A stretch of DNA of 58,680 nt, from the IMG/VR virus record IMGVR_UViG_3300034683_000215, positions 1 to 58,680 of that record. One strand, written 5' to 3'. Each line of letters begins with the position of its first letter. The stretch's first letter is position 1. The notes beneath the pieces were generated by a model. It was not told the DNA's origin. It ran no database searches and saw only the letters and a list, made by a program, of their open reading frames with translations. The position numbers and the translations under genes are program-made. Origin of the DNA: a virus. Shown here one piece after another: positions 5,269 through 45,873 of this stretch.

Positions 5269-8200
5269 ATGGAAGTAAAAAGGATAGGTGTCGGCGGTGG
5301 TTTGGATTATGATAACCAGCCGTTTCTTGTAAATGAAGGTGATGGTAGAGAAAGGGCAGATATATCCATAAACGATAATGGGTATGTTGAGCCGATACTC
5401 GATTTTAGCATACAAGGTGGTTTTGTCGATATACAATTCATTGTAGAAGATTCCAATGTATTCTATATATGCGATAAAAGTGGAGGCAAGTATTACTTGT
5501 ATAAGTTTGACGGGTTTTTACACGGGGGTACTTTCTTTCCTGAGATTTTTAACACTAGCGAGGATTTGATAATTAACAAAGACGAAGCCACAGTTACGGC
5601 TTCTGATGGAAAAATATTAATCGTAGAACCCGAACGAGAGCCTATTTATATTGATGTTAATCATTATATAGACTTGAGCTCGTTAAGTGCTGACAAGGCG
5701 GAAATGGGCGATAATGGGACTAATTTAACATTTAGACTACCATATGACCCTCAGATTAATTTAGGTGATTATGTAACATTTTTAGCAACGCCAGAGAACA
5801 TCAATAAGCAATTTGGCGCACGTTTAGGGGGTCGAGCCAAAGTTTTAAGCGTAACAGCAGGAGATGGGTATTGGGAAGTAGAACTAGACCTTTTGTCAAA
5901 ATATTTAGGAGCTGATTATGTGGCAGCGAAAATAGATTTTTATTGGAATAGTGTAGATAAAATACCTTTACTATCGCCTTATTTATATTTAAACAGACCT
6001 ATACCCCACAGGGCGCCAAAGGTTTATATGGAAGCGGACACTTTTTACCATGGGAATAATTTTATCGATACTGTTTTTTCTTTTGGGTATTCATTCGTTT
6101 ATGTAGATGGGTATGAGACACCTGTCTCACCTATGTCAGAGATTGATTTAACATCTCAGAAACAAAAGCTTTTAGGACTAAATCTTAACAAAGCGGTTTT
6201 ATCAGTACGCCCATATAACGGCGTTTCAAAGGTTAAGTTTTATTGCAAGCGTAATAATGAGTCAAACGATTTAGAATTAATAGCAGAAAAAGAAGCATTC
6301 GCTATAACAACTTGCGAATATTACGGCGATTCAGTAATTGATGTATTAGACAATACAGAATATTTAAAATCAAGCCAAGCAATACCTTTGTCTCCAATCG
6401 TAGGGAAATTTTTGGATAATCGAGTTGTCTTAGGTGCAAAAACTAAAGCCTATGATAATGGTGAAGTTAAGTTTATAGGAACTAATTACACAACATGGGA
6501 GAAGGTTACCGGAACAACATTTGAAGCGTATGCAGAAAAAAGTGTAGGTGTATATAGCCCAAATATAGTTAGATTTAAATTTACTCCCCCATCTGAGATA
6601 AATTTTTCTCCTGACACAACGGTAGGATATTATTCTTTGTCCATTGCACAATTTTCTTATTTTAAACATGGAGGAGAACTAGCATGTTCGTATGAGTTGA
6701 AAGGCACTGGAAGTGTATTTTATTCCAATGAGAGTAAGCAGACTGTAGGCGATCGGTTAGCGCAGGAGATAAGCAAGAATTTAGAAATCAATTTTGAAAT
6801 AGCAGGTGTAGCTTGGTCTAAGTATTCATATCAAAGTCATACAATTTATTCGGATTCAACGGGTAGTATTATAGTAGATATTATAATTCCCACAATGGAC
6901 GAGTATCCATATACTGTAGGAACTGGTATAGGAGTAAATCAATTTTCAAATCGTGAAGGTGGAATATCATTCGATAAATCATTAAAATTAGACGAAAAAT
7001 ATCAACTTGGCGTGCAGTTCTTTGATGAGAGCGGTCGTACGGGCGGGGTTGTAACTAGTGATACATCTATCGATTATGAGACATTATCCTATTCCTTAGA
7101 TAGCGTTCAAATAATTAAACCAAGATGTTACTTGGGGAATCCTCCCAGTTGGGCTAAGTATTACCAATTTGCAGTAGCGAAGAGAGTTAACACTAATAGT
7201 CATCATTTTATCCCTTGTAAGAATACACCAGGGGCATGGGGAACGACAAGTAATGCTTATATAGAAGAAGCAAACTACACCTTATTGGCGTTAAATTTAA
7301 TGACCATAAAAAGGGAAGAAGCTGTATCTGGCTTAGCCTATTCTTATAAAGCTGGGGATTATTTAAAATATGTTAGACGATATGACACAAATGGTCAGTT
7401 TAGAACAATAGAATCCGAAAACGAATTAGCAGCGTGGGGGAAAGTAGTTGGCGTTGAATTGCGAAATGATATAGAATATGTTATAGTCGATGGTCTCCCT
7501 AGTTTACAAAGCCATTTTGATACAGGCGCATATATGCAGTTCGAGGTGAAGAATTTTACAGAGTCAAAAACTACGGGGGCATGGCAGTTAATAGGTGATA
7601 GGTATCCTGTAAACGAAATATCATATAGGTATTATCATCCAGACAGAGGTGGATATAGACATGATATTGATTGGGGCGATTATTTTGTTAGACCGGTTCA
7701 AGGGTTATTCTATGATGTAGATGTAGATACCAATCTATATGTAGAATCGAAGTATCTTAATGATAGCTCGTTTAATAAGCAATGTTTTTCGGCTAATAGG
7801 ATAGGCGTTGCGCAGCCCAAATTAGTTGGCGAGGTTTACTATCTGTGTGCTAGTCGTCCATATATCGATGGGACGAATACAAATGGGTACTGTGTTTTTG
7901 ACTACGAAAATGCGACGTACCTAACGGATAGCTTTGGTGGTCTATTTGGTTTTGAGAAAGTTGGTAATAGGTTAGCAGCATTTTTTGAGCGGGCGTTATA
8001 TGTGATGAATATTAATACTATTGAGGTTCAATCAGACAGCAGCAGCGATGCTATTTACGTATCTAGTTACTTTGGAAATGGGAAGTTTTTTGAAAAGTAC
8101 GGAATGAATACGTATAGGTTATCATGTACAGACGGAAATAGAGTTTACTACTACGACACGGAACGAAACACTATAAATTTAATATCTGATAATGGAATAT

Positions 8201-16800: not shown

Positions 16801-17238
16801 GGCGAATCGTTATCCGTAAAGTTAGATAAGGAAGCCAGGACGAAGTGGGACCAGCCGAGCGGCGACTTAACTACCGATGCATGGAGTGCTGCCCAGCGAA
16901 TGACAGAACAATACATAAAAGCAGAGGGTTTGGAAAATGTTTACAAATTCTTTAACTTACCTGTTATAAAAGATAATATCGTTATAGTCGATGAGTTTAT
17001 CAACGAGATTATGAAAGATAAGACGTTAAGCGTAAAAGAGAGGGAGCAAGCATTTGAGTTGATTAAGGTTGAGGCAGATAGGTTGGAATACGCATTTAAT
17101 AAATTTGAAAACGGCGAAAACGTCGGCTATGTTGTTTCCCCAGAGCTAATGAACCACAAAATAATGAAAAAGATTTTAAAGATGAAAGAAAAGATTTTGA
17201 AAAACTATGGAAAAATGACAATCCTTTTCGGCGAATAA
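10852..17238 (+). CDS. Giant internal virion / ejection protein (2128 aa)
   Basis: The largest gene of the phage. Residues 1-80 are acidic and helical. A Gly/Ala-rich hydrophobic part at about residues 270-460 (LAGSFLVDTPLFIALGGSTG... and following) could insert into or span membranes. Residues about 650-750 are a low-complexity Glu/Lys/Gln/Gly linker that also encodes a separate small frame (12953-13105). The second half is helical and basic, with another hydrophobic Gly/Ala-rich stretch around 1780-1830. Nothing resembling the DxDxD motif of phage RNA polymerases was seen. Size, order and composition fit a T7 gp16-like or cargo protein released into the cell on infection. The linker suggests fusion of two ancestral proteins. 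Confidence 0.6.
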   Translation: MNEELYKLWQTLKENYSDIPEYDVFAEKFLSDETIARQLHKNMMQDFSDVPEDFNTFYSTFKKKSQSEEVLSQPSQEPATKQETGSPNIAIPIKAYSEQTLDERKKINEYNSLLAEISAMGANMEQAEKFKESGLSFLELPEEGEALARTEFSQKYLRAKTLWNEFKESGIVDGEMRYIENDPAREMSGAKQAIVHTSNAVKDALEGSVIGKIAKFLGGAGTDYTREEFSFAPDFAEQVEKEKEQIEEFEQRDVDYKKIHFGKLEQYATLAGSFLVDTPLFIALGGSTGALTSRATGAYVNTVARSLMKTGIAPEMAQAIAVNSLKNTVKGLAVKGAETAVQSGAVLGTYNAINTSLEQIQDAEKFSDISATEILNSFGHGAILGAGVGLVSPLWAKAADMATLGLENQILRKAVKAGVSTAEFGSEATIFAGLSAAMDENQTFGTDAIVENGLMLLALKGASLPTKLLGKAKKVQAKEMKFTEHELNLLGVKDKTQIKKLSQDELVNLAANENIPLVTKYKLMTEISGIIPIGTLKADEVVTEGNIVKLYREYNGKKELVSESKFDDIAAAKDYALKEKQAIIDRQYKTATDKFTVEQLAEYEKKLSSVEDADAMMDAVDTPVELRNAKQKKLANRWYNLVDEVTNKFEKIEKKEAKISPKEAEISTQKTPPIETINEGEIVQKTGEKQPKTEIKGEKKDAKAIRSDEGQILQGEPQKGNEQEGSLRQGAGEGGENLQQSAQKKTLAQEVGTLDEVITLDVPNKRQVIEEFIKEKRGELKNLDDKLIPVFLREVNRATERTAGRVVESLKKALGNSQYAQRIMAASEVSKSLENNIKGLDTKALKKIKVVGRVTRDGKQVISKVNGIKVTELPDNIIDDYIEVANRLNKKVVKPEDVKAANEFLENYSTAIKERKLIEDAPEYKVEELPAVMQERVREIDELLKRGEVEDVKAADAKLRTVERYLRRYKKDGIIDTELNYINDIEGKVQVQMEEVMQRLSSLKIEAKDAVIKANKEILSEIKISEENAVSNGDYLEAQRIKQTVEEIKNIPTALYRLRDSEIADLKEYLDYYNETGVMPVGAYQLNARLRTISRYGKVAENVVRTVEEQIRSNPELSKKLDKSVTELKKLLATNPHSAIGHLLKFKEFIGETVNNPFYNYIQNPGRAAIKEYRTMLEKFMNPIYEAAKTRNWVQKNIYDTGGYDRKMSSVVGILMPQVRMYNFLQKLENRIVGVDGKYMVVDPFGNPYKEGGIEKRFATKNEALEYAKKIPIDKLADGRPFDLFDVLNYELKDGKKVESTKRRAAVITNNSQRNKADLKLFDEAYKELVKRNGGKDLSNIKTDEDALRLLKPEEQKLYKTIRENLTLTGDMNETIAGREGQVLAKENYYYPMLSRSLRMGDANPESLLVTTMESGNLNVTNHIKPKTISLNYIDFDAVRTIERYNRDVLQSYYVLPVAREQLGALKMIRREVENKAIYDAIEKDIRDGYKMEFTSKGIFGQAGFALGSKYVDMSRWFRGVVQAARNYTLAKGERIILDTTANILKAGRLYTGDMSKWDVFFNKYYQGSAAPSSEGDVGFGRHAVEYSGFQRKAKLQKITDEYVAVGDTLPGRRIWVDKFKEAFKKLYKKDFDVEKFTSSKEYRLEVMSNPNWEQAIGIADSNYEQVMVPSTKYSNIKELSYFLFSLRSNTRAFQYNASMASYAMNESAQAAALFQNTDGNVNAAARRLFRYLISNMTFNALTQLGINTTQYLGGVIADDERAKYDALMRMKSLTDPEQVLANGAVSMVNLTIGKYANVGRLASGAIFTGISSALKSGMNKAEKYKYENIEKNLITNLGINRVLSTDFDPTKTYTSWKDVTTIFGGWYGKGVLDYGEDLVKFPEQVYNYVENKTSEDELLNEPFSFAQMTNGLSAWLAGIIPGMPNVKYATRAITSNYIGAVPDKYIRDVASFKTFTLTALDANEVFQEKYKQVKEYGKKRGEGESLSVKLDKEARTKWDQPSGDLTTDAWSAAQRMTEQYIKAEGLENVYKFFNLPVIKDNIVIVDEFINEIMKDKTLSVKEREQAFELIKVEADRLEYAFNKFENGENVGYVVSPELMNHKIMKKILKMKEKILKNYGKMTILFGE
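12953..13105 (+). CDS. Nested 50-aa basic protein inside the giant gene
   Basis: In the +1 frame relative to the host gene, an ATG preceded by AAGGAGAG (8 bases upstream) opens 50 codons ending in TAG. The product is lysine-rich and helical (for example KGMSKKEAYDKAQEKAAKIY, then NSRHKRKLSRKK). This resembles small phage proteins with an alanine-rich AA-K/R-I-x-N signature. In the same bases the main frame reads only as a low-complexity linker. The two frames therefore differ sharply in quality, and the nested one looks the more protein-like. Expression is unproven. Confidence 0.5.
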   Translation: MPKQYEAMRDKFYKENLKKGMSKKEAYDKAQEKAAKIYNSRHKRKLSRKK

Positions 17239-17239
17239 A

Positions 17240-17266
17240 GGGGCTACTAGAAAGCCCCTTTTTTTT
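17240..17266 (+). terminator. Terminator after the giant virion gene
   Basis: GGGGCT, loop ACTAGAA, AGCCCC, then eight T. It ends the virion transcription unit just before the duplicated promoter at 17277. Confidence 0.85.
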
Positions 17267-17276
17267 ATTAAAACTA

Positions 17277-17345
17277 TTAGCTAAAAAATTTGCATTTCTC
17301 AAAAAAAGTTCGTATCTTTGTAGTGTCGTAATAATTGTTTTAGCG
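17277..17345 (+). promoter_or_regulatory. Duplicated 70-bp promoter, plus-strand copy
   Basis: It contains TTTG (17289-17292), a 20-base spacer and TATCTTTG (17313-17320), a textbook Bacteroidota promoter. From TTAGCT to TTTTAGCG it matches the reverse complement of 35570-35639 at 69 of 70 positions, the only difference being one A in a homopolymer. The identity stops exactly after TTTTAGCG. It heads the plus-strand small-gene array. Confidence 0.85.
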
Positions 17346-17399
17346 GTCGAGTGTATGGCAAGTGCCTACACAGAACGTAAATAATAAACGCAGTTTAAC

Positions 17400-17606
17400 A
17401 TGAAAGATAATATGAGTGATAATTTTGATATAAACGTAAAAATGCCAGTTTGGAAGAGCATAAAATTGCGTTTATTTAGTGTTGGCAACCAAAGGGAACT
17501 GTTATTAGATTTTCTTTATTGGAGAGAAAAAGAAATACACCCAGCAGACGCTAACAAAATAATAAATAACTATTTAGAGCAGAAAAAATCTAATAATAGT
17601 TGCTAA
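17400..17606 (+). CDS. Hypothetical small protein, first gene of plus-strand array
   Basis: 68 residues, basic and helical, with no signal or membrane segment; an in-frame ATG at 17412 is an alternative start. It is about 80 bases downstream of the TATCTTTG promoter and is followed by GTTGCTAAC, one form of the boundary motif that punctuates this array. Not recognised. Confidence 0.6.
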   Translation: MKDNMSDNFDINVKMPVWKSIKLRLFSVGNQRELLLDFLYWREKEIHPADANKIINNYLEQKKSNNSC

Positions 17607-17635
17607 CTTAAATAATAACACTAAAGATTGAAATT

Positions 17636-18040
17636 ATGACAAAAGAAAACAAAAAAGACGAACGGGCATTTGCTATACACGGTGTTATGCCCCGTTATTT
17701 TTATCCAAATGGTGATGAGGTAAAAGAAAATGATATTGTGTTTTACTCCGAGAGCAAAAGCGCAGGTGATGACTTCCATTATGCAGACAGTATAAACCTA
17801 ATAGTAAAGCGAGGTAATGAATTAAAAGCAAAAGCTTTTGTGATTACGATGGATAACGCACAAACATTCCAAGATTATGAAGAACCTGAACACAATATGG
17901 TTTCTTTGGAATACGGACAGAATATGTTCAACAAAAATGGTGTGCTACCTGACTTTGAGAAAATAGGTGAATATCCAAAAGATAAAGAAATGTTGACTGC
18001 AAAATATGCCCAAGACCATTTTTGTTTTAATGGGGCATAA
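17636..18040 (+). CDS. Hypothetical array protein (134 aa), possible chimera
   Basis: A 134-residue soluble acidic protein. Near residue 13 the codons for AIHGVMP contain TATACACGGTGTTATGC, the same signature found at 18886 and at several element ends, so the N-terminus may have been joined at such a site. The stop TAA is the TAA of GCATAACGG, the left end of the palindromic element at 18035. No known domain. Confidence 0.6.
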   Translation: MTKENKKDERAFAIHGVMPRYFYPNGDEVKENDIVFYSESKSAGDDFHYADSINLIVKRGNELKAKAFVITMDNAQTFQDYEEPEHNMVSLEYGQNMFNKNGVLPDFEKIGEYPKDKEMLTAKYAQDHFCFNGA

Positions 18041-18097
18041 CGGTAAATATAAGAAGCGTGGAGCGTAGCGGAATGATTTTTATATATTGTTAGCTGG
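18035..18097 (+). repeat. attC-like palindromic element (63 bp)
   Basis: The left end GCATAACGGTAAATATAAGAA pairs with the right end TTTTATATATTGTTAGC, and an imperfect inner part lies around AAGCGTGGAGCGTAGCGG. The left end holds the stop codon of the upstream gene. Integron attC sites have a comparable plan (RYYYAAC ... GTTRRRY), but the match to that consensus is only partial. Confidence 0.55.
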
Positions 18098-18133
18098 CGA
18101 AGCGTACTGTTTAAAAATTTAAAACGAAATATT

Positions 18134-18352
18134 ATGTTGAAAAACTATTTACAAGATTTAGAAGAAATGAGCGAGCGTAATGCAGAATTTAGCGAGTATT
18201 ACCATATGTTATTAAATGGCATTGATGATCTTGAAGGCAATGACAAACCACTATTTGTTTATAGCCTGATGAACGCCATTAGAGATATTGGCTATGAGAA
18301 CGGAAAGCGAGCGGCAAACGAAGCAATGAAGAAATTTTTAAATTGCAGCTAA
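18134..18352 (+). CDS. Hypothetical array protein (72 aa)
   Basis: 72 residues, acidic and helical. It has a short leader ending AAAACGAAATATT before ATG, and its stop TAA is part of GCTAACGG at 18348, the left boundary motif of the next element. No known family. Confidence 0.65.
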   Translation: MLKNYLQDLEEMSERNAEFSEYYHMLLNGIDDLEGNDKPLFVYSLMNAIRDIGYENGKRAANEAMKKFLNCS

Positions 18353-18389
18353 CGGACAGGTATATGAGCCGTGCGGATTAACCTACTAA
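18348..18389 (+). repeat. Partial boundary element after the 72-aa gene
   Basis: It begins GCTAACGG (with the gene's stop codon inside), followed by a weak AGGT...ACCT pairing. A right-hand TGTTAGC is absent, so this looks like a degenerate copy. Confidence 0.35.
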
Positions 18390-18434
18390 CAATTGAACGA
18401 GGTACACAGTAATAATTTTAAAATATTTTTAGGG

Positions 18435-18611
18435 ATGGAAAAAATAAAAGTAAAAATACCAGAAAAATGTAAAGATTGTGTTTACGTGAATAAAAAAGGA
18501 AATTGTTGGGCTTTGAAAGATAAATGCAACCCAAACAGTATGAATTGTGATTATAGGAAAGATGAAGAGGCGAGCTACAAACGCAAGCATGGCTTATATA
18601 CCATGTTGTAG
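18435..18611 (+). CDS. Small Cys-rich protein (58 aa)
   Basis: The ATG at 18435 is chosen because it is preceded by ATTTTTAGGG, the same leader found before the adenine-methyltransferase start at 33147. The product has six cysteines in a CKDC...CWAL..KC...NC pattern, suggesting a small zinc-binding fold, and is otherwise basic. The stop TAG lies in the 9-bp inverted repeat GTTGTAGCA/TGCTACAAC. Function unknown. Confidence 0.6.
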   Translation: MEKIKVKIPEKCKDCVYVNKKGNCWALKDKCNPNSMNCDYRKDEEASYKRKHGLYTML

Positions 18612-18633
18612 CATTGTTTTAATGTGCTACAAC
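18605..18633 (+). repeat. Hairpin GTTGTAGCA / TGCTACAAC
   Basis: A perfect 9-bp inverted repeat with an 11-base loop that overlaps the stop of the 58-aa gene. It lacks a T-run, so a terminator is less likely than another boundary element of this array. Confidence 0.6.
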
Positions 18634-18730
18634 GTAAAAGTGTATGGTGTCGGTTGCACTTCAAAAACCTACTGACCTACGAACGAGTGATAAACCTCCA
18701 CGTTTACGAGCGTGGCAAAACTTAAATAAA

Positions 18731-18997
18731 ATGAGAAGACATACACAAACGATTGAAGAATGTGAACACTGTGGAAAAGTATTTGAAGCAGGAGAAGATT
18801 ACTGGAAAGATGCACATAATAAATGCTACTGTGTTGATAATGCGTGTGGGTGGGAAGATGACGATACGAGTGACAGCAACTGCACTATACACGGTGTTAG
18901 CAATCCGTTAAGTTGCGATGGTTGCAAATACAACGGTACGACTAATGACGACCTTTGCGTAACTTGCGGAGATACATATAAAAACAAAGCAACTTAA
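18731..18997 (+). CDS. Cys-rich array protein, probable chimera (88 aa)
   Basis: The ATG at 18731 follows an AT-rich leader and opens MRRHTQTIEECEHCGK. The N-terminal half has CxxC and CxC pairs like a zinc ribbon. Around residue 58 it reads SNCTIHGVSN over TATACACGGTGTTAGCA, and it then continues with a second Cys-rich part (CDGC, CVTC). The SNC.I..VSN junction and the following Cys-rich part recur at the end of the 100-aa protein at 30550-30852, which has a different N-terminus. This suggests shuffling of gene ends. Function unknown. Confidence 0.6.
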   Translation: MRRHTQTIEECEHCGKVFEAGEDYWKDAHNKCYCVDNACGWEDDDTSDSNCTIHGVSNPLSCDGCKYNGTTNDDLCVTCGDTYKNKAT

Positions 18998-19002
18998 TTG
19001 TT

Positions 19003-19100
19003 GGTAACGTTTTGCGTATATACGAGGTACGCCAAACGATAAATTTAAAATTATAAACAAATGCTTGTAGGCGTATCTTGTATATACGCTGTTAGCACCA
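19003..19100 (+). repeat. attC-like palindromic element (98 bp)
   Basis: GCGTATATACGAGGTACGCC (19014-19033) pairs with the reverse complement of 19070-19089 at 17 of 20 positions, across an AT-rich loop. The outer ends are GGTAACG and CTGTTAGCACC. This is the clearest large palindrome of the plus-strand array. Confidence 0.75.
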
Positions 19101-19104
19101 ATAC
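19092..19104 (+). repeat. 13-bp inverted repeat flanking a small gene, left
   Basis: TTAGCACCAATAC is the exact reverse complement of 19343-19355. The pair encloses the gene at 19113-19355, and the right copy contains its stop codon. Confidence 0.75.
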
Positions 19105-19112
19105 GGATTATT

Positions 19113-19355
19113 ATGGAAGATTTTAGATTTACAACAATAGAACCGCTTTTAACAAATGCAGACGCAATGGATTGGTTTTTAAATGAACATTTTTATGAAG
19201 TGTTTGATGAAGATGCAATTTTTCTGAATTACAATGATGGTTATGCAGAAGTGATTGATGGTAAAGGACAAAAATGGGGATTACACGCAAGTGGTGATGG
19301 TGATTTTGTTAGTCACAGAATTAGATTTGAAGCACTAACGAAGTATTGGTGCTAA
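19113..19355 (+). CDS. Hypothetical acidic protein in a 13-bp inverted-repeat frame (80 aa)
   Basis: 80 residues, strongly acidic and aromatic (EDFRFTTIEPLLTNADAMDWF...). Small acidic phage proteins are sometimes DNA mimics or inhibitors, but that is only a possibility here. The gene is flanked by a perfect 13-bp inverted repeat and lies between two boundary elements, so it looks like a discrete insertable unit. Confidence 0.6.
   Translation: MEDFRFTTIEPLLTNADAMDWFLNEHFYEVFDEDAIFLNYNDGYAEVIDGKGQKWGLHASGDGDFVSHRIRFEALTKYWC
19343..19355 (+). repeat. 13-bp inverted repeat flanking a small gene, right
   Basis: GTATTGGTGCTAA, the exact reverse complement of 19092-19104. The final TAA is the stop codon of the enclosed gene. 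Confidence 0.75.
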
Positions 19356-19374
19356 AGAAAAAATAAATATAAAA

Positions 19375-19725
19375 ATGAGTTTAACTGTACGATTAATAGA
19401 AAATAATAAATGCCTCTTTGAGGCAAATATTACACATAATTTAATCCCCATGGCTAAAAAAGTAGGTGTTTACGAAGCATGTTGGCGACCCTACAAAATA
19501 TACGATATAGAAGATGATTTAGAAGATTCGGTTGAAGTAAAAGCCAGAGATATTATATATTTTCTGGTAAGAGGTGTGGTAAAATTAAAGCGTTCTCCCG
19601 AAACTTTCAGAAAATACGATTCCCCTAATGGCTGGGGAACATATGATAATTTTCTACCCTGGTTGGAAAGTTATCTAGCTGCTTGTGAAAAACACCCTAA
19701 TGCAATAATCAAAGTTTATAGATAA
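19375..19725 (+). CDS. Conserved phage protein of unknown function (116 aa)
   Basis: It contains NITHNLIPMAKKVGVYEACWRP and SPNGWGTYDNFLPWLESYLAAC, two blocks I recognise from a phage protein family found next to recombination or replication genes in many phages; no function is known to me. Its stop overlaps the ATG of the exonuclease gene, so it belongs to the recombination operon rather than to the cassette-like array. Confidence 0.65.
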   Translation: MSLTVRLIENNKCLFEANITHNLIPMAKKVGVYEACWRPYKIYDIEDDLEDSVEVKARDIIYFLVRGVVKLKRSPETFRKYDSPNGWGTYDNFLPWLESYLAACEKHPNAIIKVYR

Positions 19726-20609
19726 TGGATATAAAAAAAACAAGAAAAGGTAACCTAGGGTCCAGCGACGCCAAGATGGTTGCCAAAATAGCAAAACTTG
19801 GAAAAATTTCTAAATCTGATAAATTTAGAATAGCAGAAGTATTGGGCTTGTACGAAACGCCAAATGTTTATACATCTGCTATGAGGGAGGGACACGAGGT
19901 TGAGGAGTTGTTTTATCAGGCCATCTTGCAAAATTTTAGCGGGGCCAAAAGCAATCCTATTTTTGTCAGCGTAATAAAGCCAAAGCATTTCAATATAATC
20001 AACCACATAGATGTAGAAGTTGAGAAAGAAGATAAGGTGCTTTGGTTTGAGCATAAGGCTACAAAGCACCAATCAATTGATGAGGTAGAAGAGGAATATA
20101 AGTGGCAGCTCCAATGGCATATGATGCTCTTGAAAGAACGTGCTTGTGAGAAAGGCTACTCATTAAAATTAGCATGGTTTAACACCACGACGAAAGAGTT
20201 TTCTTATAAGGAAATTCAAGAAGTCCCCGAAATGATAGAGCATCTTAAGAAGGGGATTGAAATAATCGACCAAGCGTGCGAAAAATTTGAATGGGAAAAG
20301 CCTGAGGAATTACCAGTTGAATATTTGGCAGCCCCTGTGCAGAAAAAGGTGGAAGAGGTAGCGTCAGCGTTGAGGGAGATAGATAATCTCAACAAAAAAG
20401 TAGAAGAATTCAAGAAAAAATTATTAGATATTATGTTGTCTAATAATATAAAATCAATCAAAAATGATTATATCTCGATAACACTAGTTCCAGAGAGCGA
20501 AACGGTTACATTTGACGCTAAAAAATTCAAAGCCGAGAATAAAGAATTATCGGAGAAATACAGCAAGGTAGTAAAGAAAAAACCATACATCATGATCAAA
20601 ACGAAATGA
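19725..20609 (+). CDS. YqaJ / lambda-exonuclease-like recombination nuclease
   Basis: A 294-residue PD-(D/E)XK nuclease. GNLGSSDAKMVAKI (about 9-22) is the usual N-terminal motif. The catalytic core is NHIDVEV (Asp about 96) then WFEHKAT (Glu 109, Lys 111) and a following glutamine helix (WQLQWHM). A Lys-rich coiled C-terminus follows. It overlaps the downstream recT by 4 bases. This is the classic exonuclease/annealase pair, in which the nuclease resects double-stranded ends for RecT-mediated annealing during phage recombination and replication. Confidence 0.8.
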   Translation: MDIKKTRKGNLGSSDAKMVAKIAKLGKISKSDKFRIAEVLGLYETPNVYTSAMREGHEVEELFYQAILQNFSGAKSNPIFVSVIKPKHFNIINHIDVEVEKEDKVLWFEHKATKHQSIDEVEEEYKWQLQWHMMLLKERACEKGYSLKLAWFNTTTKEFSYKEIQEVPEMIEHLKKGIEIIDQACEKFEWEKPEELPVEYLAAPVQKKVEEVASALREIDNLNKKVEEFKKKLLDIMLSNNIKSIKNDYISITLVPESETVTFDAKKFKAENKELSEKYSKVVKKKPYIMIKTK

Positions 20610-21358
20610 ACGAGATAAAGAAATTCTTTAAGCAGGACGAGGTGGAAGAAAAGTTTCGCCTTCTGTTAGGCGAAAGGGCACCTCAATTTTTGACCTCGGT
20701 TATGCAAGCCGTGTCGGAAAACTATGATTTGCAATATGTGGACCCTAAGTCCATTTATGGTGCAGCAGTAACAGCAGCCCTTATTAACCTGCCAATCAAC
20801 AAAAATTTGGGATTTGCCCATATAGTTCCATATAAAGGTGTGGCACAATTCCAAATGGGTTGGAAGGGTTTTGTTCAGTTGGCTCATAGGACTAATCAAT
20901 TTGTAAGGATAAACCCTACGGATGTGATGGAAGGAGAGATAATCGAGCGAGATCGGCTAACGGGTGATATGAAATTTAAGTGGCTGCCCGATTCGGAAAG
21001 AAAAGGGCTTGAACCGATAGGGTATGTTTCATATTTTCGACTGGTCAATGGGTTTGAAAGCACCTTCTATATGACTTCAGAAGAGCTCGATGCTCATGCT
21101 AAAAAATATTCAGAGGCTTATAGAAATAACAATGGACCTTGGGTGAATGATAAACCCGCCATGTGCAGGAAAACCGTTATTAAATTAAACCTAAGCAAGA
21201 ACGCACCTCTATCTTTGGATATGCAAAGAGCAATAATGTTCGACCAAGGAGTAACGTTCGACGGAGAAACGGTGGAATACGTGGATAATCCTGAAATAGA
21301 GATTATCGACGAGAAACAAAAAGCCATCGCTGAGAAACTGAATGGCATATTAGATTAA
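20606..21358 (+). CDS. recT: RecT-family single-strand annealing protein
   Basis: 250 residues. The RecT signature is clear: YDLQYVDPKSIYGAAVTAA (about 36-55), LPINKNLGFAHIVPY (about 59-73) and FQMGWKGFVQLAHRT (about 78-92), then a C-terminal acidic tail. It anneals complementary single strands exposed by the adjacent nuclease. The gene is translationally coupled to that nuclease (ATGA overlap). Confidence 0.9.
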   Translation: MNEIKKFFKQDEVEEKFRLLLGERAPQFLTSVMQAVSENYDLQYVDPKSIYGAAVTAALINLPINKNLGFAHIVPYKGVAQFQMGWKGFVQLAHRTNQFVRINPTDVMEGEIIERDRLTGDMKFKWLPDSERKGLEPIGYVSYFRLVNGFESTFYMTSEELDAHAKKYSEAYRNNNGPWVNDKPAMCRKTVIKLNLSKNAPLSLDMQRAIMFDQGVTFDGETVEYVDNPEIEIIDEKQKAIAEKLNGILD

Positions 21359-32060: not shown

Positions 32061-32243
32061 TTAATAGTACTCGATAACCACCACATTTATGGTGATATAA
32101 TCTTCTGAAGAGTTTGCATCCCATAATTCAGTTTTTCTAACTGTATAGGCTTTCATGTAGTCAAACTCTCCGCGCTGCTGAATAAAAACCTCTTTTTCTG
32201 GGTCTTGTTTTTTCAGCTCTTCGATTAGTTCTTTTACTTTCAT
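32061..32243 (-). CDS. Array protein with shared N-terminus (60 aa)
   Basis: The start at 32243 gives MKVKELIEELKKQDPEKE, identical over these first 18 residues to the protein at 33773-33988, after which the two differ completely. The stop is in TTAATTGCCCCCAACG, shared with the gene at 31267. Small helical N-terminal modules of this type (MKVKELIEELKKQDPEKEV) precede short beta domains in many Bacteroidota phage proteins. Confidence 0.6.
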   Translation of the reverse strand: MKVKELIEELKKQDPEKEVFIQQRGEFDYMKAYTVRKTELWDANSSEDYITINVVVIEYY

Positions 32244-32263
32244 ATGGTTATAAATTGTTGTTA
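32189..32263 (-). repeat. 75-bp direct repeat, copy 1
   Basis: Matches 33934-34008 at 74 of 75 positions. Covers the leader TAACAACAATTT(A/T)TAACCAT and the first codons of the gene. Confidence 0.9.
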
Positions 32264-32352
32264 TCAACAAGCGGAAGAACATTCGAGCATTTAATCAAGG
32301 TTAGTACGCAACGCACCATAATAAATAATTTTGCCCACCCGCTTTTGGTTTT

Positions 32353-33772: not shown

Positions 33773-33988
33773 CTATAAATCAATATCAATTTTAGGCTTG
33801 TATTTACTAATATGAAAAGTTACAGGAATTGTTTTACCATCAAGGTCAAGCAACGAATTGCTAACATGCTGTAATACGGCATTATTTTTTACTACCTTTT
33901 CCTGTTCACATTCATTCCATACTTTTATTAAAGCCTCTTTTTCTGGGTCTTGTTTTTTCAGCTCTTCGATTAGTTCTTTTACTTTCAT
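33773..33988 (-). CDS. Array protein with shared N-terminus, probable chimera (71 aa)
   Basis: The first 18 residues (MKVKELIEELKKQDPEKE) equal those of the protein at 32061. The middle contains NAVLQHVSN encoded over TGTTAGCA, the junction seen at 30666. The end is unrelated (GKTIPVTFHISKYKPKIDI). It thus combines one end known from one array gene with a junction known from another. Function unknown. Confidence 0.6.
   Translation of the reverse strand: MKVKELIEELKKQDPEKEALIKVWNECEQEKVVKNNAVLQHVSNSLLDLDGKTIPVTFHISKYKPKIDIDL
33859..33876 (-). repeat. TGTTAGCA junction motif inside a gene (second copy)
   Basis: Minus strand TATTACAGCATGTTAGCA, in the same reading frame (LQHVSN) as the copy at 30666-30682. 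Confidence 0.65.
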
Positions 33989-34008
33989 ATGGTTAAAAAT
34001 TGTTGTTA
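33934..34008 (-). repeat. 75-bp direct repeat, copy 2
   Basis: Matches 32189-32263 at 74 of 75 positions, 1.75 kb away, including leader and 5' codons. Confidence 0.9.
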
Positions 34009-34021
34009 GGCACAATAAAAA

Positions 34022-34180: not shown

Positions 34181-34212
34181 AAGCGTACTAACCTTATACT
34201 TTGCCGTTAGCG
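34181..34212 (-). repeat. Short boundary element TAACGG ... GGTTAGTACGC
   Basis: Minus strand CGCTAACGGCAAAGTATAAGG then TTAGTACGC; the stop of the 88-aa gene is the TAA of TAACGG. It lacks the long inner palindrome, so it is probably a minimal copy. Confidence 0.45.
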
Positions 34213-34473
34213 GTAATTTTCCATAAACCACTTAACACCTGCTATAAATGCTTCCTGTTTGTCGTACCAATTTACGACAACTTCCATAGTATCTTCGTTT
34301 GTGTTATCATCATTAGATTTATCGCTATAATTTATAGCAGCAGTTTCAATTTCATTTTCGGAAGGAAAACTACCGCTAACAGCAAATAAATCCAATAACT
34401 CACTTTCTGCATCATTGAAAGATAAATCACCAGATTTAATTCTATTTAGTATTTGTTTAATTTTTTCTTTCAT
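34207..34473 (-). CDS. Conserved Bacteroidota phage protein of unknown function (88 aa)
   Basis: It has the ESELLDLFAVSGSFPSENEIE and AFIAGVKWFMENYR blocks found in short proteins of many Bacteroidota phages and prophages; no function is known. GTTAGC occurs in the VSG codons. Stop TAA lies within the boundary motif TAACGG. Overlaps the upstream gene by 4 bases. Confidence 0.6.
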   Translation of the reverse strand: MKEKIKQILNRIKSGDLSFNDAESELLDLFAVSGSFPSENEIETAAINYSDKSNDDNTNEDTMEVVVNWYDKQEAFIAGVKWFMENYR

Positions 34474-35569: not shown

Positions 35570-35639
35570 CGCTAAAACAATTATTACGACACTACAAAGA
35601 TACGAACTTTTTTTGAGAAATGCAAATTTTTTTAGCTAA
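35570..35639 (-). promoter_or_regulatory. Duplicated 70-bp promoter, minus-strand copy
   Basis: Minus-strand TATCTTTG (35595-35602) with TTTG 20 bases upstream. Reverse-complement twin of 17277-17345; the identity ends at TTTTAGCG, after which the arrays differ. It begins a few bases after the dUTPase stop. Confidence 0.85.
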
Positions 35640-43791: not shown

Positions 43792-43819
43792 AGATTTTAT
43801 TTTTTTTAAAATAACATTG

Positions 43820-43827
43820 CAAAGATA
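43820..43827 (-). promoter_or_regulatory. -7 element TATCTTTG (minus strand)
   Basis: With TTTG 20 bases upstream (minus strand). Drives the clamp and the replication operon to 35644 or beyond. Confidence 0.75.
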
Positions 43828-43868
43828 CGAATAATTTTTAACAATTCCAAATTTTTTAACAGAAAAGA

Positions 43869-44282: not shown

Positions 44283-44333
44283 AATTAATTTTTTTTGTTA
44301 TCGGCAAAAATAGCATTTTAAATTTTAACGGCA

Positions 44334-44341
44334 CAAATGTA
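44334..44341 (-). promoter_or_regulatory. -7 element TACATTTG (minus strand)
   Basis: TACATTTG, with TTGG about 20 bases upstream on the minus strand, before the transglycosylase gene. Confidence 0.6.
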
Positions 44342-44444
44342 CGAAAAAATTTTGAGAAATCCAATTTTTTTTAAGCAAAAAAATACCATGCCTCTAATTT
44401 TGCATTTTAAGGTATCAAATTTCAACGTTCTTCGTTCGGGAGTA

Positions 44445-44452: not shown

Positions 44453-44552
44453 CCACTTAGGGGTAGAACGCTTAAATATGAGCCTAAAAATGCCCTTAAA
44501 TGGCTTTCTATTAATCGAGATTAAATCGAGTTGAGTTATGATTAACTTTTTT

Positions 44553-44574
44553 GGGGGGGGACTATAGGGGGGGG
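44553..44574 (+). repeat. Paired G8 tracts
   Basis: Two runs of eight G separated by ACTATA, marking the start of the AT-rich desert. A possible intramolecular or G-rich structural element, or a polymerase-slippage hotspot. Confidence 0.7.
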
Positions 44575-44576
44575 TA

Positions 44577-44588
44577 TAGTAAGTAATA
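44577..44588 (+). repeat. Iteron-like TAGTAAGTAATA, copy 1
   Basis: Direct repeat with copies at 44702-44713 and (with C at position 3) 44779-44790. Confidence 0.6.
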
Positions 44589-44676
44589 TTAGTTATTCTA
44601 TATCGATTCTTATAGTATATCTAGTATGTATTAAACATCTTTTAGCATTCCTTACATTCTGTTAGTTTACTTATAT

Positions 44677-44689
44677 TGGTTTATCTATA
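44677..44689 (+). repeat. Repeat TGGTTTATCTATA, copy 1
   Basis: Identical to 44792-44804. Confidence 0.6.
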
Positions 44690-44701
44690 ATACTATTCTT
44701 T

Positions 44702-44713
44702 TAGTAAGTAATA
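44702..44713 (+). repeat. Iteron-like TAGTAAGTAATA, copy 2
   Basis: Identical to the copy at 44577-44588; followed by ATGGTTATAAATATAG. Confidence 0.6.
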
Positions 44714-44791
44714 ATGGTTATAAATATAGTTTAAGCCGCTTGTGTTATTTAGTATATTATAGTAAATACTATTGGTTATACTAAGTAATAG

Positions 44792-44804
44792 TGGTTTATC
44801 TATA
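44792..44804 (+). repeat. Repeat TGGTTTATCTATA, copy 2
   Basis: Second copy of the 13-bp repeat, preceded by the variant iteron TACTAAGTAATAG. Confidence 0.6.
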
Positions 44805-44973
44805 TACTAACATATATGTTTTATACATAAACATTCTTTGTATATATTATATATAAGCATTGTTCTATATTATATATTATATATTATATATATATATTAT
44901 ATATTATTATATATAGTATATTATATATAAGTAAGTAAAGTAATTAGTATATAAGGGGGGTATGGGGGGGAAA

Positions 44974-45873
44974 TTATCTGAGCAAGTTTTTCTTTGTGAG
45001 CTTTTTGATGTTGTTGTGTCGTCCTCTAGAAACATGTCCGCAATCTTTGCATCTGTAAGAGCTGTAAACGCCAGCAGGTGTAAAATATTCGCCAATTTCT
45101 TTTACATTGTAAGAACCACATCTGGGGCATGCTGAATCTATTGCTTCTGTTAAAATAGCCATATTTGGGTGGGTTTTTATCCAAGGTCTTATTTCCACGT
45201 ATGCTTCTTCAAGAAGTCTAACATCGTTATCGCAATATTCTGCCATATAGGTTAGAGCTTCTTCATCTCCTTTGATACATTTCTCCCAAAGTTCAATGTC
45301 GGTTTGTATTTTTTCTTTATTGAACATTAGTTGAGAAACATAGTTTAGACTTGAACGAGTAAAAGCGAATCGGCTTTTGACGGTTTTATATAAATCAATT
45401 GAAGCAAAATTTTTAGGCGGTGGCATTTTATGTAGTAGAAATCTGGTGTTCAATCTTTTAATATCAAATTTATCTCCGTTATAAGTTACAATGGCATCAG
45501 CCTGGTTTATTAAATTATAAATTTCTTCTGCTATTCTTTTGTCATCTTCATTAATAGCCTCATCAGGTGTTTGCACGGCTGAAAAAATTTCTGGCTCAAA
45601 AAGCCATTTAGCAGACCAACATATCATATGCCATTCCCGTAAAATTTTATCCGTGCTAAATACAGGCTGAAAAATATTAAAAGCCATACAAACCATAGGG
45701 GATATTTCAATATCAAGCAAAAGAATCTTAGGAATCCTGAATTTAATTTCTTTTGCGAAATTTATATATCTAACCAACGATGCTGGTCGTAGATTGTAAT
45801 GTACTAGAGTTGCATTAAAACCGTGTATCTCGAGATATTCCATGATCTCGATTAGTTTACTATCGCTAATCAT
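44974..45873 (-). CDS. DEDD-family 3'-5' exonuclease with zinc ribbon (299 aa)
   Basis: A small helical N-terminal part, then LLLDIEIS (Asp54, Glu56), TYNGDKFDIKRL (Asp at about 134) and EYCDNDVRLLEEAY (final Asp near 222), the DEDDy exonuclease set of RNase H-like folds. The C-terminus has CPRCGSYNV ... YRCKDCGH, a zinc ribbon. Likely a DNA/RNA trimming enzyme of the replication block; ends at the AT-rich desert. Confidence 0.78.
   Translation of the reverse strand: MISDSKLIEIMEYLEIHGFNATLVHYNLRPASLVRYINFAKEIKFRIPKILLLDIEISPMVCMAFNIFQPVFSTDKILREWHMICWSAKWLFEPEIFSAVQTPDEAINEDDKRIAEEIYNLINQADAIVTYNGDKFDIKRLNTRFLLHKMPPPKNFASIDLYKTVKSRFAFTRSSLNYVSQLMFNKEKIQTDIELWEKCIKGDEEALTYMAEYCDNDVRLLEEAYVEIRPWIKTHPNMAILTEAIDSACPRCGSYNVKEIGEYFTPAGVYSSYRCKDCGHVSRGRHNNIKKLTKKNLLR

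Follow-up and report, generated by a model that had tools for sequence, protein, structure and literature searches.

Inverted copies of a promoter-like element at the heads of two integrase-less cassette arrays in a phage genome

The window, by which we mean the whole 58.7-kb IMG/VR virus record analyzed here, carries two cassette arrays headed by inverted, near-identical copies of one 70-bp element, and we consider it likely that this element is a duplicated host-type promoter that serves two CALINs in the manner of an integron Pc, and not an attI module. The element would comprise a sigma-ABfr promoter and the initial ~20 nt of the leader, and it was probably duplicated recently, within the phage, by general recombination. 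Downstream of a late-gene terminator, copy 1 would open a rightward operon in which array 1 is followed by RecE/RecT and further genes, and copy 2 would open the leftward array 2 behind a dUTPase gene. The host RNA polymerase is expected to transcribe the largely promoterless cassettes from both copies, and with transcription beginning at two head sites, these would act functionally like an integron Pc, the cassettes themselves presumably joining at G|TT within attC sites further downstream and not at the repeat. To our knowledge, CALINs have been reported in phages with little on how their cassettes are expressed. Here, it seems that the phage has twice provided the array promoter that was missing, by copying one of its own promoters or one of its host's.

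The repeat pair and its promoter motif

The two copies and the signals related to them are located as follows:

17237–17266 (+): intrinsic terminator (1 found vs. 0.1 expected in shuffles)
17277–17345 (+): promoter copy 1 (putative), 69 nt, matched against copy 2; by motif, −33 TTTG at 17289–17292 and −7 TATCTTTG at 17313–17320
35570–35639 (−): promoter copy 2 (putative), inverted, 70 nt, beginning 5 nt past the dUTPase stop codon; by motif, −33 at 35626–35623 and −7 at 35602–35595
43814–43858 (−): paralogous promoter (putative), 80% identity over 45 nt, adjoining no array
44333–44371 (−): paralogous promoter (putative), 79% identity over 39 nt, adjoining no array

An earlier note on this DNA had described the inverted repeat with its sharp shared end, had read it as a true duplication heading two arrays, and had pointed to a Bacteroidota promoter motif inside it, all of which was confirmed. 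Copy 1 and the reverse complement of copy 2 match at 69/70 positions, the sole difference being one A in an A-run (A6/A7), and the exact run common to both is 63 nt long. As the longest exact inverted repeat arising by chance in 12 Markov-resampled windows was 15–19 nt, chance is excluded as the source of the pair; no other inverted pair of at least 30 nt in the window was above 87% identity. In both copies the identity begins at TTAGCTAAAA and stops at TTTTAGCG, and the 60-nt flanks are identical at 25% (upstream) and 23% (downstream) of positions, i.e., at the random level. Each copy reads into a block of small ORFs, and the dUTPase beside copy 2 was recognized by its match to phrog_135. The record also carries a 117-nt end repeat, which is consistent with a complete circular map.

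The promoter consensus of Flavobacterium johnsoniae consists of a −33 TTTG and a −7 TANNTTTG, with transcription starting 4–5 nt past the −7 element (PMC6847099). Both copies contain TTTG-N20-TATCTTTG, which agrees with this consensus in the two elements and in the spacing of ~20 nt, and, judged by this motif, both are probably sigma-ABfr-type promoters. From the published spacing, the start in copy 1 is predicted at ~17325, followed by ~20 nt of shared leader that ends in TTTTAGCG, so that the repeat would cover roughly −45 to +20. Motif, spacing, and AT-rich context are those of the sigma-ABfr promoters of Bacteroidota (PMC6847099), and while the core is the same, the duplication and the placement are unusual. 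A strong terminator (17237–17266) lies just upstream of copy 1 and closes the late operon, which includes a 2128-aa late ORF.

Both paralogues of the promoter sit upstream of non-array genes. In addition, the 70-mer has weak matches in phage records (76–80% over ~50 nt, E 0.04–6), located in unannotated stretches and mostly in Bacteroidota phages, with one further weak match in the phage record of contig L124. These matches indicate that the promoter core is generic, and it is the near-identity over 70 nt that requires a duplication. The earlier note had conceded that the element would lose its special role if it were a common host promoter without a link to arrays; this applies to the core, which is a generic Bacteroidota promoter, but not to the whole 70-mer, which is confined to the heads of the two arrays. 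An ORF-less "promoter cassette" was also considered, but the left end (CTATTAGC, TTTTTAGC) does not show G|TT and the interior has no attC stem, and the idea was rejected on these grounds. Single-strand folds of the 70-bp head were no better than those of shuffles, and the RNA family search returned nothing above threshold.

Anatomy of the two cassette arrays

The arrays, their attC sites, and the neighboring genes are the following:

17346–19362 (+): array 1 (CALIN), with cassette boundaries at 17685, 18090, 18606, 18897, and 19092; stops before the RecE/RecT operon
17339–17690 (+): first attC of array 1, its 5' half abutting promoter copy 1; 11-nt pairing with one G/A mismatch
19001–19098 (+): canonical short attC of array 1
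19725–20609 (+): RecE-like exonuclease, phrog match (phrog_434 and phrog_148 for the RecE/RecT pair)
20606–21358 (+): RecT-like annealing protein, downstream of array 1 and within the potentially invertible segment
29260–35569 (−): array 2, with two leading ORFs followed by CALIN cassettes from 34379 to ~29260
35543–34851 (−): methyltransferase (MTase) ORF of array 2, phrog_799
34820–34470 (−): 116-aa ORF of array 2, between the MTase ORF and the first cassette
34207–34379 (−): first hallmark cassette of array 2, its start TTAGCGGTA complementary to its own R'' TACCGCTAA
30427–30556 (−): canonical short attC of array 2, GCTAACGTTACGTGTATG...CATTGTTAGC
30432–29500 (−): RNA ligase cassette, the last of array 2

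Both arrays are integron-type CALINs, i.e., cassettes without an integrase. Neighboring attC sites (at least two) with paired R''/L''...L'/R' arms are present, and no integrase gene lies nearby, a search of the 58.7-kb record for the tyrosine recombinase/phage integrase domain PF00589 having given no match. The integron analogy drawn previously is therefore upheld for the arrays themselves, as attC sites and cassettes occur in both. In the orientation of the arrays, two paired sets of attC arms were found in array 1 and two in array 2 (vs. 0 and 0.13 expected in shuffles), and none in the reverse orientation. Furthermore, the bases following G|TT are complementary to the cassette's own R'' in three cassettes of array 1 (17685–18040, 18090–18352, and 18606–18632, + strand) and four of array 2 (34379–34207, 33553–33382, 30671–30550, and 30432–29500, − strand). 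In bulk, this cassette-end test, strand-symmetric by construction, exceeds shuffles only ~3-fold in array 1 and 2.6-fold in array 2, so that single pairs need an attC context, which each of the listed cassettes has. The attC calls are based on the paired-arm and cassette-end tests, the anchored-stem scan being too noisy for use. A host integron integrase would be required for any exchange of cassettes, as the phage has no tyrosine recombinase; in scans of genome contigs, no host integron with these attC sites or with a cassette protein turned up.

CALINs are known from virulent phages, namely Polaribacter phage P12002L, Tetrasphaera phage TJE1, and Pseudoalteromonas phage PH101 (PMC9892861). 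These resemble the window in being integrase-less attC arrays accompanied by methyltransferase genes within or close to them, one of them in a Flavobacteriia phage. They are not known to have an inverted duplicated promoter head, and the attC sites of the window differ in including long ones with ORFs in the loop. The same study reports a Shewanella prophage, M16-3, in which an integron and a CALIN both begin with the same attI (PMC9892861), and there too one head sequence opens two arrays in a single phage genome; that head, however, is an attI proper, with an integrase linked to it, while the one in the window is a putative promoter without an integrase. With the Pc of class 1 and chromosomal integrons, the element would share the driving of promoterless cassettes from the array head, and it differs in its sigma-ABfr type, in its two copies, and in not being linked to attI or intI.

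The same attC family was found in other IMG/VR phage contigs (L122, L123, L124, L127/L131, L128, L129, and L178). Its mark is a conserved mismatch, a G in the 5' arm facing a T in the 3' arm (C vs. A on the bottom strand), observed at a similar place at 18039, 18351, 18631, 19006, 30551, and 33303 of the window as well as in L124, L127, L128, L129, and L131, and it is perhaps a strand-discrimination feature of the family.

An 89-bp repeat (93%) within array 2 (32182–32270 and 33927–34015) covers the starts of two ORFs with differing 3' parts, and the otherwise identical contig of another record (L005/L042) stops at 33934, inside this repeat, which may point to a break in the assembly or to variation of the array. 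Different phages share a cassette leader, GTAATAATT...TTTTTAGGGATGG (18409–18440 and 33176–33134 in the window; 2790–2815 and 3525–3555 in L124). The last 18 nt of the head (GTAATAATTGTTTTAGCG) weakly resemble this leader, a resemblance that carries little weight because AT-rich DNA often contains the 9-mer.

The end of the repeat as an insertion site

The integron integrase cuts G|TT, and the bases to the right of the cut belong to the incoming cassette. Part of the earlier interpretation was a fixed promoter-plus-insertion-point (Pc/attI) unit, with an attI-like site at TTTTAGCG and cassettes inserted directly after the repeat. A sequence that is constant and then breaks off sharply, with different genes beyond, would fit such a site, but we regard it as very improbable and rejected it on the core sequence, the side of the cut, and the place where the cassettes first begin. 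Its core, GTTTTAGC, departs from GTTRRRY, and the eight bases right of the G (TTTTAGCG) are common to both arrays although their first genes differ, which places shared bases on the cassette side of G|TT. The first bona fide cassette boundaries lie well downstream, at 17684/17685 in array 1 (340 bp) and at 34380/34379 in array 2 (1190 bp). At the repeat, the hallmark pairing between the start of a cassette and a downstream R'' was not found: array 1 has no R'' complementary to TTTTAGCG, and the sole CGCTAAAA in array 2 is located within an ORF and not in an attC. Of the components of an attI/Pc module, the G|TTRRRY core with an adjoining cassette and a linked intI are missing, the phage having no integrase, and a promoter that, judging by its motif, would read into the array is present.

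The end of copy 1 may nevertheless be non-random, given that an attC 5' half adjoins it exactly and that the same relation recurs in contig L123, and this speaks against the reading as a mere duplicated promoter. The first attC of array 1 consists of a 5' half, TTTTAGCG-GTCGA-GTGTATGGCAA, in which the last bases of copy 1 occupy the expected place of R'', and a 3' half, TTGCTATACAC...G|TTATGC, 340 bp further on; none of 2000 resampled regions paired as well, and the G/A mismatch in the pairing is that of the attC family. In L123, a putative promoter is followed by TTTGACGTTTAGTGTATGG, with the partner half 279 bp on (p 0.0075). These two layouts would be expected if the promoter and a resident, phage-owned attC formed a capture platform, with a host integrase inserting cassettes at the G|TT of this attC (17684/17685) and the head supplying transcription, and in part also translation, of the inserted cassettes. 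The loop of the attC holds ORF 17400–17606 and the start of ORF 17636–18040, and the latter, which begins before the 17684/17685 junction and crosses it in frame, would also agree with such a platform. We consider this reading rather unlikely, however, as a promoter beside a resident attC was seen in only two examples (array 1 and L123) and is not common to both copies in the window. The array 2 copy has no convincing attC half (the best non-signature match reaches p ~0.01–0.02 before correction) and is separated from its first cassette by two non-cassette genes, and the phage arrays of L128 and L129 have no promoter at their heads. Its extension, a landing platform on which captured cassettes become C-terminal extensions of the loop ORF and yield new fusion proteins in two arrays, we likewise judge improbable.

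Apart from the reading as a duplicated promoter, which we prefer, the long attC sites deserve a description of their own. Their loops (~200–340 nt) often hold an ORF start, and the ORF runs over G|TT into the next cassette, as observed in the window at 17342–17684, 18631–18896, 30940–30672, 31262–31062, 33866, and 34380, and in other contigs at L122 4764, L123 5925 and 8028, L124 2038, L131 639 and 290, and L178 4513. In 13 of 15 crossing ORFs from a hand-picked list of sites, G|TT provides a Val codon (phase 0). The C-terminal parts of these ORFs are varied, several being zinc-ribbon-like. Fused cassettes described in the literature come from attC loss (PMC4670013), which differs from the crossing by loop ORFs found here. 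Given loop ORFs that stay in frame over the junction, the shuffling of cassettes in Bacteroidota phages may rearrange protein modules in addition to whole genes.

Orientation of the bracketed segment and related contigs

The inverted copies bracket ~18.2 kb that include the RecE/RecT genes, and inversion of this segment is conceivable. A switch in which recombination between the copies flips the 18.2 kb, for instance by RecT annealing, could draw on a 70-bp near-perfect inverted repeat with RecE/RecT inside the segment, and each array would keep a promoter after the flip, for which reason considerations of expression by themselves would hardly reveal an inversion. We consider such a switch very unlikely, though, as no flipped contig was seen and the PF00589 search of the record revealed no tyrosine invertase. 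Only one other contig has a copy (L042, 24.6 kb); it is 100% identical to the window over the 11.3 kb aligned, and its junction between dUTPase and array 2 has the window's orientation at copy 2.

A 19-mer of the head matched only the near-identical contig in IMG/VR, the whole array 1 region matched no phage record, and no relatives carrying the repeat region were found, which counts against the explanation by a duplicated promoter. The closest RecT relatives are ≤ 48% identical, the next relative of the C5-type DNA MTase is 57% identical, and a query with the terminal part of the large late protein retrieved no relatives. Matches to the portal were found only in the near-identical L138 and in L139, the latter with 94–96% DNA identity and covering structural genes only where compared.

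Some observations on these and other contigs may be added. In the record of L124 (L141, 33496–36540), the 70-mer has a promoter-like match next to a tmRNA-like start, GGGGTTGACTGGTTTTGACAGC, where ARAGORN reports no gene. L124 itself encodes a 271-aa tyrosine recombinase (6436–7251) beside its cassette array, with XerA/XerC and integron integrase models as best matches, all below curated cut-offs. Finally, positions 44540–44980 of the window are noncoding and of low complexity (TA-rich with C-runs), and the related contig L139 also starts there (44543), making this stretch a possible origin or assembly break.
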